Shown here in pieces: positions 12,613-20,430 of a stretch of 64,000 nucleotides of DNA. Position 1 is the first letter of the stretch. Every line of letters starts with the position of its first letter. The stretch is taken from assembly GCA_021498095.1 (NCBI GenBank), contig JAIZWK010000001.1, positions 2,157,666 through 2,221,665 of the forward strand, in the 5' to 3' direction. Below the pieces are notes generated by a model, which was given only the letters and a program-made list of their open reading frames with translations, had not been told where the DNA came from and ran no database searches. A program made the position numbers and the translations under genes. This DNA is from Candidatus Harpocratesius repetitus (GTDB taxonomy: Archaea; Asgardarchaeota; Lokiarchaeia; Sigyniarchaeales; Promethearchaeaceae).

Positions 12613-12813
12613 TTAATATATTTACAAATGAAATTTTAAGATATGTTCTCTGTGGAAAGTGTGTTTTTTTTCAAAAAAGTTTCAAAGTTTATCCTATTTT
12701 GATGCACCGATAAATGACACTTAGATTGAGGGAAATATCATGATCAGCTTCTTGTATAAAATAAGATAAATATCAATACTGAGTAAAATTACATAATAAA
12801 TGGTGAATTTTTG

Positions 12814-13668
12814 ATGGCAGAATCCCAAGAAAATATAGGCGATAAGAATTTCGAAATTGTTGAAAAAGCAAAAAAAGCTTTTAAAGATGGAAATTTTCAA
12901 ACTGCAATCGATCTCTTTAAACAATCAATCGAAATTTGTGAATCTCAAAATTGGATCGATGGAGTTCGATACGCTAAAGGAATGATTGAAGATGCTCTAG
13001 AAATGATAAGAATACAGAAAGAAGAAGAGAAATTTCTTGAACATGAAAAAGAACAAGAACAACAAGAACAAGAAATTCTAAATAAAGATTTTGAAAGTGA
13101 ACAAATAACTAATGAGCAACAAAAGAAAATAGAAGAGCAAAAGAAAATAGAAGAGCAGAAAGAAATTGAAAAACAAAAGAAAATAGAAGAGCAGAAAGAA
13201 ATTGAAAAACAAAAGAAAATAGAAGAACAGAAAAAAAAAGTGAAACAAAAAAGATTTGATGAAGAAAAAAGAAAGGAAGAGCAGAAGAAAATAGAAGAAC
13301 AGAAGAAAATAGAAGAACAGAAGAAAATAGAAGAGCAGAAAGAAATTGAAAAACAAAAGAAAATAGAAGAGCAGAAAGAAATTGAAAAACAAAAGAAAAT
13401 AGAAGAGCAGAAAGAAATTGAAAAACAAAAGAAAATAGAAGAGCAAAAGGAAATTAAAAAAGAAACTCGCGTAGAAAATGAGAAAAGTATAAAAATTTAC
13501 GTCCAAAAAGGATCTGGACGATTGCAATGCCCTGTTTGTGATAACAATAAAAGAAATATGATACGTGAAGTAATAGATAAAAGCCATATTATTATGGATT
13601 ATCCATTAATTTATGGAAAGAAGTATATTTGCGGTAAATGCGGTGCACAGTGGAGACGAGAAGAGTAA
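12814..13668 (+). CDS. Repeat-rich coiled-coil protein with TPR-like N-terminus and C-terminal zinc ribbon
   Basis: Not recognised. Residues about 9-65 (KAKKAFKDGNFQTAIDLFKQ, SIEICESQNW) look like a TPR-type helical hairpin pair. The middle, about 75-225, is a highly charged coiled coil built from repeats of KKIEEQKEIEKQ. The C-terminal 50 residues form a zinc ribbon: CPVCD, later CGKCG before QWRR, two CxxC pairs that can bind one zinc. Its zinc ribbon and TPR-like start suggest a binding adaptor. GGTGA at 12801-12805 sits eight bases before the ATG at 12814, which decides the start over the in-frame TTG at 12811. Confidence 0.78.
   Translation: MAESQENIGDKNFEIVEKAKKAFKDGNFQTAIDLFKQSIEICESQNWIDGVRYAKGMIEDALEMIRIQKEEEKFLEHEKEQEQQEQEILNKDFESEQITNEQQKKIEEQKKIEEQKEIEKQKKIEEQKEIEKQKKIEEQKKKVKQKRFDEEKRKEEQKKIEEQKKIEEQKKIEEQKEIEKQKKIEEQKEIEKQKKIEEQKEIEKQKKIEEQKEIKKETRVENEKSIKIYVQKGSGRLQCPVCDNNKRNMIREVIDKSHIIMDYPLIYGKKYICGKCGAQWRREE
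13120..13458 (+). repeat. In-frame 36-bp tandem repeats encoding KKIEEQKEIEKQ
   Basis: A 36-bp unit (aaagaaaatagaagagcaga followed by aagaaattgaaaaaca) recurs almost identically in two blocks, about 13142-13240 and about 13316-13450, separated by degenerate half-units. The near-identity at third positions points to recent expansion by slippage or recombination; length may vary between strains. Confidence 0.8.
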
Positions 13669-14236: not shown

Positions 14237-16861
14237 TTAAAATATTATTTCAAATATCGAAAAAAGAGAAGGAATTTCTATTTTTAGGAAAGATAAGCCA
14301 TTAAATAAAATAAAAAGAATCGTTAAACCAAATATAGATATAAAAAGAAAAAACCATTCGTGCCAGTCCCATTTGACATGATGAAGATTGGTTCGGTTTG
14401 GAAAAGCACCAAATCCTCTGGATTCAATAGTCATTGCTGTAATTTTTGTCTTTCTTAAAATTGAGATTAGTAAAGTTGAAATTTGCTGAATTATATGTCT
14501 ATAAATTTTTTTAATTGAACTTCCTTTTTTAATACCAAAACCCCGTAATGTTTGAGCTATTTCAATGGTATTTGATTCTTTTTCTATTAGAGGGATATAT
14601 CGCATTCCAATCATAAAAGCAAAAACAAATCGATAAGGAATACCAATTTGGATTAATGAAAAAATAATATCCTTTGGTGTGGAAGTTTTAGTAAATATAA
14701 CTCCTGTAGAAATCAGAATTAGAATAATAATTCCAGTTCTTAATGAATAGTAAAAAGCAAGGCGTCTTACAGGTAAATTGGTAGTAAAGAAATAAAATAA
14801 AATTTGATCATCTGATATGAAATCTGCTGAAAATAGCGTATTTAATGGAATATAAATAATTGTTAAAATAAATATCCATCGAATTTGACGCAATAGTCTT
14901 ACTGTTGAAATATCACCAGTTTTTGCCAAAATAAGTATTGCGATATAGGAAAAAAGGAGCACAAGAATGCTTTTAGAAGTAAATAAAAATCCTGTAAAGA
15001 AAATTAATGCGATTATTTTTGCAACTGGATTTAGTCTGTGAAGCCAATTATTTGATGGAGAATATTGGTCTTGTTGATAAAGAAAATGCTCGATACGCTT
15101 AATTTTTCTCGTTTTAGAATGATCATGTTCTTTTTTCTTTTTTTTTTTTGATCTTTTTTTCGATATTTTTTCAATTCTTGGAATTTGGTTATAACTTTCT
15201 TTCTTAATTTCTTTCTTAGAGTTTGCTTCTTTTTTAATTTCATCTAAATTTAAAATTCGGGTGCAATTAGATTTGAGTAATTTTCGATCGTGAGATACAA
15301 TTACAATTGTCTTTCCTTCTTGATGAAATTCTTTCAAAATGTGAAATATTTGTTGAACAGCACTAGCATCTTGACCAATGAATGGTTCATCAATAAGCAA
15401 AATTTCAGGAGAATAACTAAAAATTGATGCTAAATTTAGCCTTCTTTTCTGTCCCCAACTTAAATTGAAAGGATTTCGATTTTCAAGAGATTTCAGATCA
15501 TTTCTATATTCTCCAATTAATGGTAATAGGTTTGAGAGAATTTCTTTTTCATTAATATTTGCTAATCTAGAATTGTTCGATTTTTTATTTTTTTTATCAA
15601 ATAATTTAAAATTCCTAGGAGCGTAAAGTATCTCTTCATCTATTTTCATTTCAAAAATTTGATTTTCTGGATTTTGAAAAATAAATCCAATATTTGGGAT
15701 GAATTCTTCTATATCATAGGCATTTAAAGAAATTCCATTATAAAGTATTTCCCCCTCGTTAGGTTCTAAAATATGAGCTAAAAGATATAATAGAGTTGTT
15801 TTTCCACTTCCATTATCCCCCACGATGCCTAAAAATTCTCCTGGATATATTCTTAAAGAAAAATTATGGAAAACATAGTTTTGAGCACTAATTTTTTCCC
15901 GATAATAAGAATAAGTAATATTGTTAACTTCCATTATTGCTGTCTGTGTTATCATAGGAAGAATTGGCGTTTGAGTTAATGAATATTGTAGATTATTTGA
16001 TTTTAGTAAAAATGAATCATCACGTAGGTATCTTGATTCTTGCATTCCAATCCAAGATTGATACTTTTTAAGATTATCATAAAAAACAAGAGTTCCTTTT
16101 GAATCAAGTATTAAGACTTTATCAAGTAAATCAGAAAACGGATTTAATCGATGTTCCACAATAATTATTGTCAACTTTGGATTATCTTTATGGATTTTTT
16201 TAAGAATGGAATAAAGCATCATTTCTCCTTTTTTATCTAAAAAAGCGAGAGGTTCATCCAAGATTAAAATTTCAGGAGACATAACCAAAACTGCGGCGAT
16301 TACAACTTTTTGCATTTCACCTCCGCTTAAATGAAGAATTGGGCGATCTAAAAGGGATGATATTCCTAATGAATCTGCGATTTTTTCAACACGATTTCGA
16401 ATTTCATCTTCTTCTAATTTTAAATTTTCCAAAACAAACGCCAATTCGTCATAAACCGTAAAAGTTACTAGCTGTTCTTCTGCATTTTGAAAAATTACAC
16501 CTATTCTTTTTGAAAGATCTTCAGGAGAGTGATCCCAAATGTCTTTTCCAAATATATGAATACTTCCAGACATTTGTCCTGTTATACTATAAGGTATTCT
16601 TCCTGAAATCGCATTACATAGTGTTGATTTTCCAGACCCACTAATTCCACCAATTAAAACAACTTCACCATAAGAAATTGAAAGTGTAATTTTTTTTAAG
16701 ACAAATGGGGATTTCACATTAGATCCATATCGAAAGGAAAAATTAGAAAAATGTATACATGAAGATAGTTTGTTTTCTTCCTTATTTAATGGAACACTTG
16801 CATTTTGCAATGAAAAAACTATCTTTTCTGTTTCAGAGTTATCCATATTTTTACTTTCCAC
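14237..16861 (-). CDS. ECF transporter: two ATPases and EcfT fused in one protein
   Basis: The energy-coupling module of an ECF importer in one 874-aa chain. The first ATPase (about 36-290) has Walker A GGISGSGKST (71-80), a Q-loop in VIFQNAEEQ, signature LSGGEMQ (178-184) and Walker B ILILDEP (198-204). The second (about 310-560) has Walker A GDNGSGKTT, FIFQNPENQ, a modified signature LSWGQKRR and Walker B ILLIDEP. After a Lys-rich linker, residues about 600-874 form EcfT, with several membrane helices and the coupling motif in AMTIESRGFGAF. ECF parts are normally two or three genes, so the A-A-T fusion is notable. GTG at 16861 starts the frame; ATG five codons later is possible. The S-component gene lies just upstream. 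Confidence 0.88.
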   Translation of the reverse strand: MESKNMDNSETEKIVFSLQNASVPLNKEENKLSSCIHFSNFSFRYGSNVKSPFVLKKITLSISYGEVVLIGGISGSGKSTLCNAISGRIPYSITGQMSGSIHIFGKDIWDHSPEDLSKRIGVIFQNAEEQLVTFTVYDELAFVLENLKLEEDEIRNRVEKIADSLGISSLLDRPILHLSGGEMQKVVIAAVLVMSPEILILDEPLAFLDKKGEMMLYSILKKIHKDNPKLTIIIVEHRLNPFSDLLDKVLILDSKGTLVFYDNLKKYQSWIGMQESRYLRDDSFLLKSNNLQYSLTQTPILPMITQTAIMEVNNITYSYYREKISAQNYVFHNFSLRIYPGEFLGIVGDNGSGKTTLLYLLAHILEPNEGEILYNGISLNAYDIEEFIPNIGFIFQNPENQIFEMKIDEEILYAPRNFKLFDKKNKKSNNSRLANINEKEILSNLLPLIGEYRNDLKSLENRNPFNLSWGQKRRLNLASIFSYSPEILLIDEPFIGQDASAVQQIFHILKEFHQEGKTIVIVSHDRKLLKSNCTRILNLDEIKKEANSKKEIKKESYNQIPRIEKISKKRSKKKKKKEHDHSKTRKIKRIEHFLYQQDQYSPSNNWLHRLNPVAKIIALIFFTGFLFTSKSILVLLFSYIAILILAKTGDISTVRLLRQIRWIFILTIIYIPLNTLFSADFISDDQILFYFFTTNLPVRRLAFYYSLRTGIIILILISTGVIFTKTSTPKDIIFSLIQIGIPYRFVFAFMIGMRYIPLIEKESNTIEIAQTLRGFGIKKGSSIKKIYRHIIQQISTLLISILRKTKITAMTIESRGFGAFPNRTNLHHVKWDWHEWFFLFISIFGLTILFILFNGLSFLKIEIPSLFSIFEIIF

Positions 16862-16923
16862 AAATTTTATGATTTTTTTTATTAATATTTTACTGTCTTT
16901 AATTTTTTCATCTTTTCTTTAAA

Positions 16924-17571
16924 TTAAATTATCTGAGCCGCTAAAATTCTATCCACAACTAATTTTGCAATCAATCCTGCAATTAAAAATCCTGATAGGA
17001 ACCCAAACATGCATGACATCACAAATAAAGACCAATGTAAAATAAAAATTTTTCCAGTAATTATCCAAAAAAGAGGTACTTGAGAGAGGTTTCCTAAACC
17101 TGCAGCAAGACCCCAACCCAGTTTCGTATCATTTTCGCCAAATAATTGCATTATTGATAATCCAAAAAATAGAAACACACTTTCATAAAATGTAAATCCA
17201 ATTTCTAAAATACTCCATTGAGATCCAAAGAGATAGTTAAGGAATCCTTGAATAATCGCCGTTAGGAATATTATCGGCTTTTTTCTTCTCAATCCATAAG
17301 CAATCATCATCCATAATAAGCGGTGTCCACTGATCAATTGAGTTCCACCGACAAATGGATACCAAGTTTTTACTAAAAGATCGAATTTTACTAAACCAGA
17401 AATAAATCCTCCCATAATTCCCAAAATCGAACCAATTAATAAATCTTCGGTTGAAAAGTAGTATTTACTATGTTTTCGTTGCTTTTCTTGAATTATTTTT
17501 GAACGTGAACCTGTGGGAATTAATGTAGATGAATCTAAATCATTGTTGCTTTTTTCAAAGTTATTTTGCAT
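16924..17571 (-). CDS. ECF transporter substrate-binding (S) component
   Basis: A polytopic membrane protein of 215 aa with five or six hydrophobic segments, beginning with a cytoplasmic Ser/Lys-rich stretch of about 45 residues. It is placed directly between the ECF energising fusion and the surface-protein genes, which strongly suggests the S component that binds the micronutrient. Helix order and GHRLLWMMIAYGLRRKKPI followed by LNYLFGSQW recall the YkoE (thiamin/hydroxymethylpyrimidine) family, but this is a weak resemblance; the substrate is not established. The gap to the next gene upstream is only 15 bases, so they are in one operon. Confidence 0.75.
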   Translation of the reverse strand: MQNNFEKSNNDLDSSTLIPTGSRSKIIQEKQRKHSKYYFSTEDLLIGSILGIMGGFISGLVKFDLLVKTWYPFVGGTQLISGHRLLWMMIAYGLRRKKPIIFLTAIIQGFLNYLFGSQWSILEIGFTFYESVFLFFGLSIMQLFGENDTKLGWGLAAGLGNLSQVPLFWIITGKIFILHWSLFVMSCMFGFLSGFLIAGLIAKLVVDRILAAQII

Positions 17572-17586
17572 TTTAATTTATTCCTT

Positions 17587-18213
17587 TTAATAAAATTTTA
17601 TTGCATCTAAATATTTTACGTTGAATTTACTGTTATGAACAAAATTTTGATTATATTTCTCAAAAATTTGTTGCATTTCATCACTTTCTTCTAATATTGT
17701 ATATATTACACCTGATTTAAGAGGTCCATCACCACCTTCTGATTGAGGTGCAATTGGCTTTCCATCTATTTGAGTAATAATAAAAAATGCATCATGATTT
17801 TTTTGCAGTAATGAAATTGGAATTTCAAAGGTTTTATATCCATCGCTTGATTCAAATCTTAAATATTGTACGTCACTTAAATCTATTCTAAGTTTTTCAA
17901 GAATATCCCACAAAAGAACTGCAGAAATGGTGGTAATCATGGTATTATTAACTGAATTTAAGGTAAAATATGTAATATTTTCAACTCGAGCGAATGTTCC
18001 ATCCATTAATTCTGAGATTCCGATAAATCTTTCTGATGGAATATTCCCATAAATTCTCAAACATGCAGAATCATGACATTCCCCATATTTTTGCTGAATT
18101 TCCTGATATTGCACCCAATTATAGTAAAATAGACTTCCTAAAACTAACATGAAAATAGTTCCAGCTATAATTATATTTCGAGTACGACTTTTTATGTGAA
18201 GCCTTTGATTCAT
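17587..18213 (-). CDS. Membrane-anchored extracellular protein with sulfite-oxidase-like (SUOX-type) domain
   Basis: One N-terminal membrane helix (about 12-33) is followed by an extracellular domain of about 170 residues. The pattern (IYGNIPSERFIGISELM, then VLLWDILEKLRID, YLRFESSDGYKTFEIPISLL) resembles the molybdopterin-binding fold of sulfite oxidases, especially the conserved DGY. No cysteine sits where a molybdenum ligand would be expected, so it is more likely a binding protein than an enzyme. It is clearly related to the next gene upstream (DGYKSYYFPI, NFVYNSLFNVHYL versus NFVHNSKFNVKYL). Tight linkage to the ECF genes suggests a role in substrate capture. The fold call is inference from motif order. 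Confidence 0.6.
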   Translation of the reverse strand: MNQRLHIKSRTRNIIIAGTIFMLVLGSLFYYNWVQYQEIQQKYGECHDSACLRIYGNIPSERFIGISELMDGTFARVENITYFTLNSVNNTMITTISAVLLWDILEKLRIDLSDVQYLRFESSDGYKTFEIPISLLQKNHDAFFIITQIDGKPIAPQSEGGDGPLKSGVIYTILEESDEMQQIFEKYNQNFVHNSKFNVKYLDAIKFY

Positions 18214-18283
18214 TTCCTCCTTCCTCTGCTTACATTTGATTTTGTTATATTTTTGATTGTTATTCTGATTTATATTTCTGCTC

Positions 18284-19162
18284 TTAATTTCTGAGTTGTT
18301 TTCTATTCTTTTTTTTATTAACTATTGTCACCAGCATGATGATAAATGTAAATGAAAATATTTCTATCCATTCGCTATATCCAAGAATAGACAATTGGTT
18401 CTCTTTCTCTTTTGTATCATTTATAGATGGATTATCATCGTTTTCAATTGTATTATTATAATTTAGATGAATTGTTGAAATTTCTATAGCAGATAGGTAA
18501 TGAACATTGAAAAGTGAATTGTATACAAAATTTTCCCCAGGTTCACCAAGTTCTTTAAACATTGCAATCATTTCTGAATCATTAACGATACTTTCATATA
18601 GAACATTGGATTCTATTGGACCCTTTGGTGGAACTTCTCCATTTTCTTCAGTTGTAATTATAACAGAATGTGTATTATTTTTCATGATTCGAATCGGAAA
18701 ATAATAACTTTTATATCCATCATTTCCCACAAATCGAATATATGTTGCATTTTCCTTTAAAACATCCAAATTATTAAAGATAGAATACAGAAACACACCT
18801 GAGATTTGCAGATAATTCTTAGTTCCCATTTTATTCAACCAAGTAAAATTAAGATTATTACAAGTTTCATATGTATTGTTTAATAGAGCCGTTTTGGATA
18901 TATTGAATGATTCTATGACTCCATCACCGTAAAAATGAAGAATTTGGTTATTGTAATAGTTTTCTAAATCTTCTATAGACGGATCATCAGAGTTTTTTTG
19001 ATTAGATGACAAGATGAAGGAGTAATTTTGAGAAAAACTTGAATTTTCGTGAGTATTTATTTTAATACTTAAAGGAAATAAAAGAAAAATGGTTAGTTCC
19101 ATAAAAATTAATATGGAAAAACCAATAATACGAATTTTCTTAAAATCTAAATGGTTTCTCAT
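18284..19162 (-). CDS. Surface protein, paralogue of the downstream SUOX-like protein
   Basis: A 292-aa protein with an N-terminal membrane/signal segment (residues 9-31), an extracellular domain rich in NxT/NxS sites, a second transmembrane helix near the C-terminus (WIEIFSFTFIIMLVTIV) and a basic KKKNRKQ tail. The core (FLYSIFNNLDVL, YIRFVGNDGYKSYYFPI, FVYNSLFNVHYLSAI) aligns by eye with the 17587-18213 protein, so the two arose by duplication. One cysteine (ETCNNLNF) lies in the region where sulfite-oxidase-type domains have their ligand. Function is unknown; co-localisation with the ECF transporter suggests recruitment of ligand at the cell surface. Confidence 0.6.
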   Translation of the reverse strand: MRNHLDFKKIRIIGFSILIFMELTIFLLFPLSIKINTHENSSFSQNYSFILSSNQKNSDDPSIEDLENYYNNQILHFYGDGVIESFNISKTALLNNTYETCNNLNFTWLNKMGTKNYLQISGVFLYSIFNNLDVLKENATYIRFVGNDGYKSYYFPIRIMKNNTHSVIITTEENGEVPPKGPIESNVLYESIVNDSEMIAMFKELGEPGENFVYNSLFNVHYLSAIEISTIHLNYNNTIENDDNPSINDTKEKENQLSILGYSEWIEIFSFTFIIMLVTIVNKKKNRKQLRN

Positions 19163-19227
19163 GTTGATTTACCTTATTTCTTATTTTTCTTAAATTTTAG
19201 GATTCTTCTTTTTTTAATTAACGATGT

Positions 19228-20430
19228 TCAAGCTATTTTCTTTTTCTTTTTTATTTGACTAAGTACCAAAGCAATAATCCCAATGCTTATCACTCCAAGT
19301 TTATTGACTGTATATCCTGGAATACTATTATCATCCGGTAAATCTGATGGAATAATTGTAATTCTAATTTCAATTACTCCTCCAATATAATTTTTCTTGC
19401 TTGCTCCTGGAATAATTAATTGGTAGGGTCCCCGTGAAAATCCAAGATCTTTTCCATCTTTCTGAACCATCAACATTGCCTGTTTTCCTTCGTTTGAAAG
19501 TTCAACTGCAGGATCATTAATCATAGTTCCAGTAAATCCATTCTCCATTTGCTCTTTAGTAAAAACCATATTTGCTCCATAGCCATCATAAGCGATAAAG
19601 GATATATTGTAATTTTCATTAGTTATTTGTTGCATTAAGCTGGCAACTGTGAAGCCAGTTGAGAGCGATCTACTCCAACCATACCCTGATGCATTGTCGA
19701 AATATCCCCATGTATAACTAGTAAAATTGACTGAATTTGTGTTATTTTGGCTGTTGAAATAACCGATTTTTGTTCCATTTACCGTGAAACTTAATGTCCA
19801 AGGATCTGTATAATCAATTGATACAATATCCCTAACTTTTTGCTTTCCAATTAGGTTCTCTCCCCAGATATAAAAGTTTCCATAATCTGGATTGTAATCA
19901 TGGAGCCATTGATTATTCCATGCAATCAGAATAATAGTAGCGTTGTCAGTCTCAGGATATTTAGAATAATCTGAATCTGCCATTAAGAGTTGAGTTGTAT
20001 TAATAACAAAACTGTATCCATCTCCCGCTTTAACTGTGAAATTAAAGATGTCGTTCCATCCAGCAATTTCAAATAAATGTAATGGATTAAAGCCAATTAC
20101 TGGGTAAAAACTTCCCTCTTTTTCAATTGTATAGTTTTTCATTTGAAATGTATGATTTTCATAAGTTGTATAGTTAATAATTTGACTCAAAGTAAATAAT
20201 CTGGAGTAATCTCCCTTATGGAGGGTGATATTTGCATCTGGAATATCACCAGCTGGAAAAGTTACATTATTCCATAAATCATCGGCTACGATTGGAACGA
20301 GATTATATTTTGATGCCGATTTCATCTTCTCATTGGAGTATTGAACGTTAGATACAAATGAATTGCTCAAAATCATTAATCCAATTAAAAATCCTAATAA
20401 CAGAGAATTTGTTATAAATTTTTTCTTCAT
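19228..20430 (-). CDS. Secreted, C-terminally anchored protein with two SUOX-like domains
   Basis: A signal peptide (MKKKFITNSLLLGFLIGLMI) starts the protein; the ATG at 20430 is preferred over a TTG three codons upstream because GAGAT precedes it. The ectodomain seems to hold two related units: one with FNPLHLFEIAGW and FTVKAGDGYSFVINTTQLL, the other with VASLMQQI, FIAYDGYGANMVFTKEQM and RGPYQLIIPG. Both keep the DGY pattern of the two downstream proteins. The end (DDNSIPGYTVNKLGVISIG, then KKKKK) matches the IPGY-membrane helix-Lys tail seen on the 620-2431 protein. This is the first gene of the ECF operon and probably the outermost receptor; that role is inferred. Confidence 0.62.
   Translation of the reverse strand: MKKKFITNSLLLGFLIGLMILSNSFVSNVQYSNEKMKSASKYNLVPIVADDLWNNVTFPAGDIPDANITLHKGDYSRLFTLSQIINYTTYENHTFQMKNYTIEKEGSFYPVIGFNPLHLFEIAGWNDIFNFTVKAGDGYSFVINTTQLLMADSDYSKYPETDNATIILIAWNNQWLHDYNPDYGNFYIWGENLIGKQKVRDIVSIDYTDPWTLSFTVNGTKIGYFNSQNNTNSVNFTSYTWGYFDNASGYGWSRSLSTGFTVASLMQQITNENYNISFIAYDGYGANMVFTKEQMENGFTGTMINDPAVELSNEGKQAMLMVQKDGKDLGFSRGPYQLIIPGASKKNYIGGVIEIRITIIPSDLPDDNSIPGYTVNKLGVISIGIIALVLSQIKKKKKIA

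Follow-up and report, generated by a model that had tools for sequence, protein, structure and literature searches.

A group I ECF importer with SUOX-fold ectodomains in Asgard archaea, a probable salvage system for a molybdopterin-type cofactor

Our analysis of a 64,000-nucleotide stretch of Candidatus Harpocratesius repetitus DNA (the window), taken from a genome of 4.36 Mb in a single contig, focused on an operon at positions 14237-20430 of the minus strand. Its five consecutive genes encode, from 20430 to 14237, three surface proteins (SUOX-C, SUOX-B and SUOX-A), an S component and the energy module (AAT) of an energy-coupling factor (ECF) importer (Table 1). We consider it probable that the operon constitutes a dedicated importer for the salvage of an extracellular molybdopterin-type cofactor, either molybdopterin or its molybdenum or tungsten (Mo/W) complex. 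The evidence comes from the fold of the surface proteins, from their linkage and fusion to the S component, from molybdenum cofactor (Moco) genes located beside the operon in relatives, and from the distribution of the importer and of de novo cofactor synthesis across Asgard genomes.

Table 1. Genes of the importer operon (window coordinates; aa, amino acids)
Feature	Position	Strand	Description
AAT	14237..16861	-	EcfA-EcfA'-EcfT single-chain energy module, 874 aa, GTG start; ABC ATPase domains at ~aa 36-264 and 310-541, CbiQ/EcfT domain at aa 604-824
S component	16924..17571	-	YkoE/PF09819-like membrane subunit, 215 aa, directly upstream of AAT
SUOX-A	17587..18213	-	N-terminal transmembrane anchor (~aa 9-43) and one extracytoplasmic SUOX/PruR-fold domain
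SUOX-B	18284..19162	-	Second A-type SUOX domain, between two transmembrane segments
SUOX-C	19228..20430	-	N-terminal signal anchor, tandem SUOX/PruR-fold domains (~aa 66-210 and 211-360), C-terminal transmembrane segment

Two ABC ATPase domains, an EcfT/CbiQ domain and an S component are all present, which confirms the operon as a group I ECF importer. As the preliminary description of this DNA had proposed, both ATPases and EcfT are joined in one chain, encoded in one operon with the S component: ABC_tran matched two stretches of AAT (196.9 bits), CbiQ (PF02361) scored 81.4 bits, and the ECF_ATPase models of NCBIfam scored 334/299 bits. Only the window's family has the triple fusion (close relatives L031 and L032); the other relatives carry an AA gene and a T gene. 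The S component of the window scored 20.7 bits against PF09819, under the gathering cut-off of 25.2 bits; it was nevertheless assigned to the YkoE family, as a distant member, because homologues fused to a SUOX domain, which were reached by a search with the window S profile, scored 61-78 bits, above the cut-off. The best PDB match of the S profile was YkoE (5edl, E value of 0.022), and residues K68, Q78, E130, W153, N161, Q164, W169 and H179 are invariant among the relatives. All named relatives of the S gene come from Asgard metagenome-assembled genomes (Ca. Prometheoarchaeum sp. and Lokiarchaeota/Lokiarchaeia, with one labelled Bathyarchaeota).

The three membrane-anchored proteins were confirmed to carry four SUOX domains in all, as had been anticipated, and structure prediction did not reveal unrelated folds: SUOX-A and SUOX-C share the SUOX/PruR fold. 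The AlphaFold2 model of SUOX-A, built with 28 aligned relatives, reached a predicted local distance difference test (pLDDT) score of 92.4, and a Foldseek search of the PDB returned PruR first (1.3e-5), followed by sulfite dehydrogenase (3.5e-5) and YedY (6.1e-5), with sulfite oxidase also among the matches. PruR was likewise the top PDB match of the SUOX-A sequence profile (7kom, 1.4e-4). The SUOX-C model had a pLDDT of 73.5, and its best Foldseek match in the PDB was PruR (1.1e-5), with the PruR-neopterin complex (7rkb, 7.5e-5) also among the matches; a sequence search of the PDB with SUOX-C gave no match, and only the fold search did. The SUOX-C profile also matches SUOX-A over 48 columns, and relative L095 shows tandem PF00174 domains. 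The fold of SUOX-B is assigned by homology to SUOX-A (31% identity, E value of 4e-20). PF00174 taken alone is marginal in SUOX-A and SUOX-B (E values of 0.14 and 0.27), whereas relatives L095, L104, L118 and L128 exceed its cut-off. SUOX-A and SUOX-B had been regarded as recent duplicates; however, the tree shows a family-level duplication, with a long branch, that took place inside the window's family.

The motifs of these domains resemble those of a pterin-binding protein more than those of an enzyme. SUOX-A contains D124-G-Y126 and G163-P164, with D124 conserved in 28/29 and Y126 in 29/29 sequences of SUOX-A and its relatives, and each half of SUOX-C carries one DGY motif. In the profile alignment to 7kom, DGY aligns with the Asn-x-Tyr of PruR, a protein that binds pterins in the periplasm without a Mo cysteine and whose Asn102 and Tyr104 are pterin-site residues (PMC13259868). 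The Asp and Tyr of DGY thus appear to occupy the positions of Asn102 and Tyr104, and by analogy with PruR we infer that the SUOX ectodomains bind a pterin. SUOX-A lacks the Mo-ligating Cys and has no conserved Cys at all, a conserved Asn86 lying near the Mo-ligand position, and it was therefore rejected as a sulfite oxidase or YedY-type enzyme. The Mo-ligating Cys does occur in a true enzyme encoded near the importer of a relative (L037:11374-12423).

The ectodomain genes stay with the ECF genes in other genomes, the linkage being near-perfect. In Lokiarchaeales, the gene order SUOX-C, B, SUOX-A, S, AA, T is conserved, and SUOX-A stands directly beside S in 33/35 strong S genes. Furthermore, in the Asgard families numbered f11, f15, f18 and f28, S is followed in the same chain by an extra transmembrane or hydrophobic segment and then by a SUOX domain at the C terminus. 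Because such fusions exist, we conclude that the SUOX ectodomains belong to the importer; the fused genes provide strong evidence for a physical partnership of ectodomain and S component. The proposal that the membrane-anchored ectodomains work together with the S component is thus well supported by the linkage and by the fusions in four families. Near the fusions lie tandem SUOX genes and calcineurin-like phosphoesterase genes. Two of the latter are directly upstream of an S-SUOX fusion, namely L103:7523-9115, an N-anchored phosphoesterase fused to SUOX, and L107:8085-9362, which has an N-terminal anchor and no SUOX domain.

The array of SUOX proteins holds for the window but not for most relatives, in which position B is taken by an unrelated DOMON/EB_dh-like protein. 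These proteins matched EB_dh and DOMON below cut-off and NxrC in the PDB (E value of 2.8e-4), and they have an invariant His250 and a near-invariant Met149. Such resemblance to heme-b proteins would suit an importer of heme or another tetrapyrrole, and yet we judge this very improbable: the window operon contains no DOMON copy, and the SUOX domains and the Moa context would be left unexplained. HemB, detected in 14/228 Asgard genomes, is rare and hence does not discriminate. By this count, the standard route to tetrapyrroles seems to be closed to most Asgard archaea. A stop-riddled remnant of a DOMON/EB_dh-like position-B gene was also seen elsewhere in the window's genome, outside the window (L115:6590-6781, G000:C1:2099589-2099780, minus strand), ~6 kb from an aldehyde ferredoxin oxidoreductase (AOR) gene.

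SUOX and DOMON folds are both found as molybdoenzyme subunits, and the surface proteins might accordingly be electron-transfer or oxidoreductase parts of a redox chain that merely share an operon with the importer. Given the missing Mo-ligating Cys of SUOX-A and the S-SUOX fusions, which suggest that the surface proteins are probably coupled physically to the importer, we regard this as the most improbable of the explanations considered. Other conserved neighbours in relatives, a coiled-coil protein pair and flanking MoxR/VWA genes, were set aside as, on present evidence, general chromosomal context. The coiled-coil pair (~245-250 aa) occurs near the importer in Lokiarchaeales (L035:2363-3855) and in family f17 (L118:2881-4390).

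Two clues to the substrate had been suggested, a riboswitch and linked biosynthesis genes. When the window and eight loci of relatives were scanned with Rfam, only tRNAs emerged and no substrate-reporting riboswitch, including none for thiamine pyrophosphate (TPP). The neighbouring genes proved informative, since moa, moe and mob genes are linked to the importer in relatives and point to a molybdopterin (Mo/W) cofactor. In genus g14 (L039), the operon continues on the same strand after T with MoaC, MoaA, MoaD, MoaE, MoeA, MoaB and MoeA; L052 has the same open reading frame (ORF) layout, and the moaC/moaE positions match in G161 and G058. In family f17, the gene order is T, MobB, SUOX, S in the five loci that contain all four. 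Downstream of T in genus g7 (L037 and L047) lie a MoaB-type gene and the gene of a true SUOX-family molybdoenzyme that carries a fused b561-like membrane domain; the enzyme gene stands just after the importer (the L037 gene mentioned above and L047:12206-13255).

The same evidence bears on the possibility that the operon encodes a YkoEDC-type importer of thiamine or hydroxymethylpyrimidine (HMP) that has gained ectodomains, their SUOX fold having been recruited for a pyrimidine ligand. The S component belongs to the YkoE family, ThiC is missing from the window's genome, and, in a weak alignment, the positions of the YkoE pyrimidine contacts E77 and Q95 (PMC5037267) are Glu in 15/19 and Glu in 19/19 sequences. 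The thiamine-site set W49, E77, Q95 and D131 is nevertheless not retained: E77 is replaced by Asn in the window, Q95 by Glu, and the positions of Trp49 and Asp131 hold His and Trp. Together with neighbours that are moa/moe/mob rather than thi, with the lack of a TPP riboswitch in the scanned loci, and with the lack of association between ThiC and the S component across 228 Asgard genomes (P = 0.17), this renders a thiamine or HMP importer quite unlikely.

The same 228 genomes were surveyed for co-occurrence of the importer with de novo cofactor synthesis, the S component being detected by profile and counted when SUOX-linked. Both were detected in 6 genomes, S alone in 51, MoaC/MoaE alone in 94 and neither in 77. 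The naive Fisher test for exclusion gave P = 1.3e-9, a value inflated by relatedness; the stratified test, with the g14 exceptions included, gave P = 2.4e-4. Within genus g7, the counts (both/S only/Moa only/neither) were 0/3/16/0 (P = 0.001), within genus g11 they were 0/11/5/8, and within family f28 they were 0/8/16/23, where membership of the unlisted f28 genomes was assumed from numbering. The distribution of MoeA parallels that of MoaC/MoaE, nearly all genomes with a SUOX-linked S being without MoeA. AORs, tested with AFOR_N in 80 genomes, were present in 80/80, including 43/43 that have the system and lack MoaC. The window's genome itself contains 6 AFOR_N matches and none for MoaC, MoaE or MoeA, in a search that did not extend to MoaA, MobB or other late genes. 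Since AORs are present and MoaC, MoaE and MoeA are absent, the organism appears to need tungstopterin without making it. Collectively, the exclusion of MoaC/MoaE and the presence of AORs fit a salvage system that replaces the de novo pathway in cofactor users, apart from the genomes that hold both or neither.

As to the ligand, the absence not only of MoaC but also of MoaE and MoeA makes molybdopterin or the metal-loaded cofactor more likely than the early intermediate cyclic pyranopterin monophosphate. In the mechanism that we propose, the SUOX/PruR-fold ectodomains, anchored beside S or, in other lineages, fused to it, would bind and shield the reduced pterin before passing it on to the YkoE-like S component, which would then topple into the AAT energy module. 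Hydrolysis of ATP would free the ligand inside the cell for W/Mo enzymes such as AORs. More speculatively, the phosphoesterase found in other lineages might trim nucleotide or phosphate forms of the ligand ahead of its import.

Another possible cargo is a small free pterin (monapterin, neopterin, or folate or methanopterin precursors), with the SUOX domains acting like PruR. PruR, including its neopterin complex, provides the nearest folds, and it prefers small reduced pterins (PMC13259868). Against this, neither the co-localisation with moa/moe/mob nor the near-exclusion of MoaC/MoaE is predicted by such a substrate, and the SUOX-A model superposes on full-size YedY (~178 columns, 2.5-2.8 A) better than on PruR. 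We therefore consider a small-pterin importer unlikely.

Several observations weigh against salvage of a molybdopterin-type cofactor. PruR has been considered too small for Moco (PMC13259868), and YkoE, the nearest characterised relative of the S component, binds thiamine, its site being partly kept in the relatives. Four g14 genomes, G040 and G013 hold both a SUOX-linked S and MoaC/MoaE. In the 77/228 genomes with neither, AORs were found in 27/27 tested. The presence of AORs is therefore not diagnostic, the importer as we detected it does not account for all apparent auxotrophs, and there must be either other routes or S components that have diverged. Divergent S components are one possible explanation, as in f17, whose S components were missed by the profile used in the survey. 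Finally, several or many of the surveyed genomes are incomplete, and the search of the window's genome covered only part of the pathway.

Elsewhere in the window, positions 12811-13668 of the plus strand hold an ORF rich in KKIEEQK-type repeats with a Cys-rich C-terminal segment. The repeat is mirrored by a long antisense ORF (13078-13587), which is probably spurious.

Several hundred prokaryotes have molybdoproteins without a complete cofactor pathway, which the survey that counted them left unexplained (PMC6147048). For Moco, uptake from the surroundings has been demonstrated in Caenorhabditis elegans alone, and its path across membranes is unknown (PMC9793310), as is the route of pterins across bacterial membranes (PMC13259868). 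If our interpretation is correct, the operon names a candidate transporter for this uptake, explains how six AOR matches can go together with the absence of MoaC, MoaE and MoeA in one Asgard archaeon, and adds the cofactor to the metabolites that syntrophic Asgard archaea may take from their partners. ECF importers would also be seen to use extracellular binding domains. Asgard archaea are related to the microbes that gave rise to complex cells. Taken singly, ECF importers, the YkoE family, PruR and SUOX folds have all been described before. In the open-licence PubMed Central literature, we found no description of an ECF importer with SUOX ectodomains for molybdopterin salvage, or of DOMON proteins with ECF. 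We see about an even chance that this is the first described membrane importer of a finished Mo/W cofactor, combining ECF with pterin-gripping SUOX ectodomains, and that many Asgard archaea are tungsten-cofactor auxotrophs depending on their neighbours.

Among known systems, the YkoEDC importer of Bacillus (group I ECF, thiamine/HMP) shares with the present one the S family PF09819 (which the window copy matches distantly, below cut-off), a dedicated EcfT and, in most relatives, an AA protein. However, YkoEDC has no ectodomains, whereas here Trp49 and Asp131 are replaced, the context is that of Moco and not of thiamine, and in the window EcfT is fused as well. The DOMON and ethylbenzene dehydrogenase gamma-like heme proteins (PF03351, PF09459) resemble the position-B protein of most relatives, although these remain under the Pfam cut-offs and none is encoded in the window operon. 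YedY/MsrP and the sulfite oxidase family (PF00174) are alike in fold; unlike them, the proteins described here have no Mo-ligating Cys and no redox partner in the operon. PruR of the PruR-DcpA signalling system shares the SUOX fold without the Mo cysteine, the extracytoplasmic location, the [N/D]-x-Y motif and a membrane partner. Nevertheless, PruR is a soluble signalling protein of ~170 aa that binds small pterins, while the ectodomains of the Asgard operon are membrane-anchored, arranged in tandem or fused to S, and encoded together with an importer.

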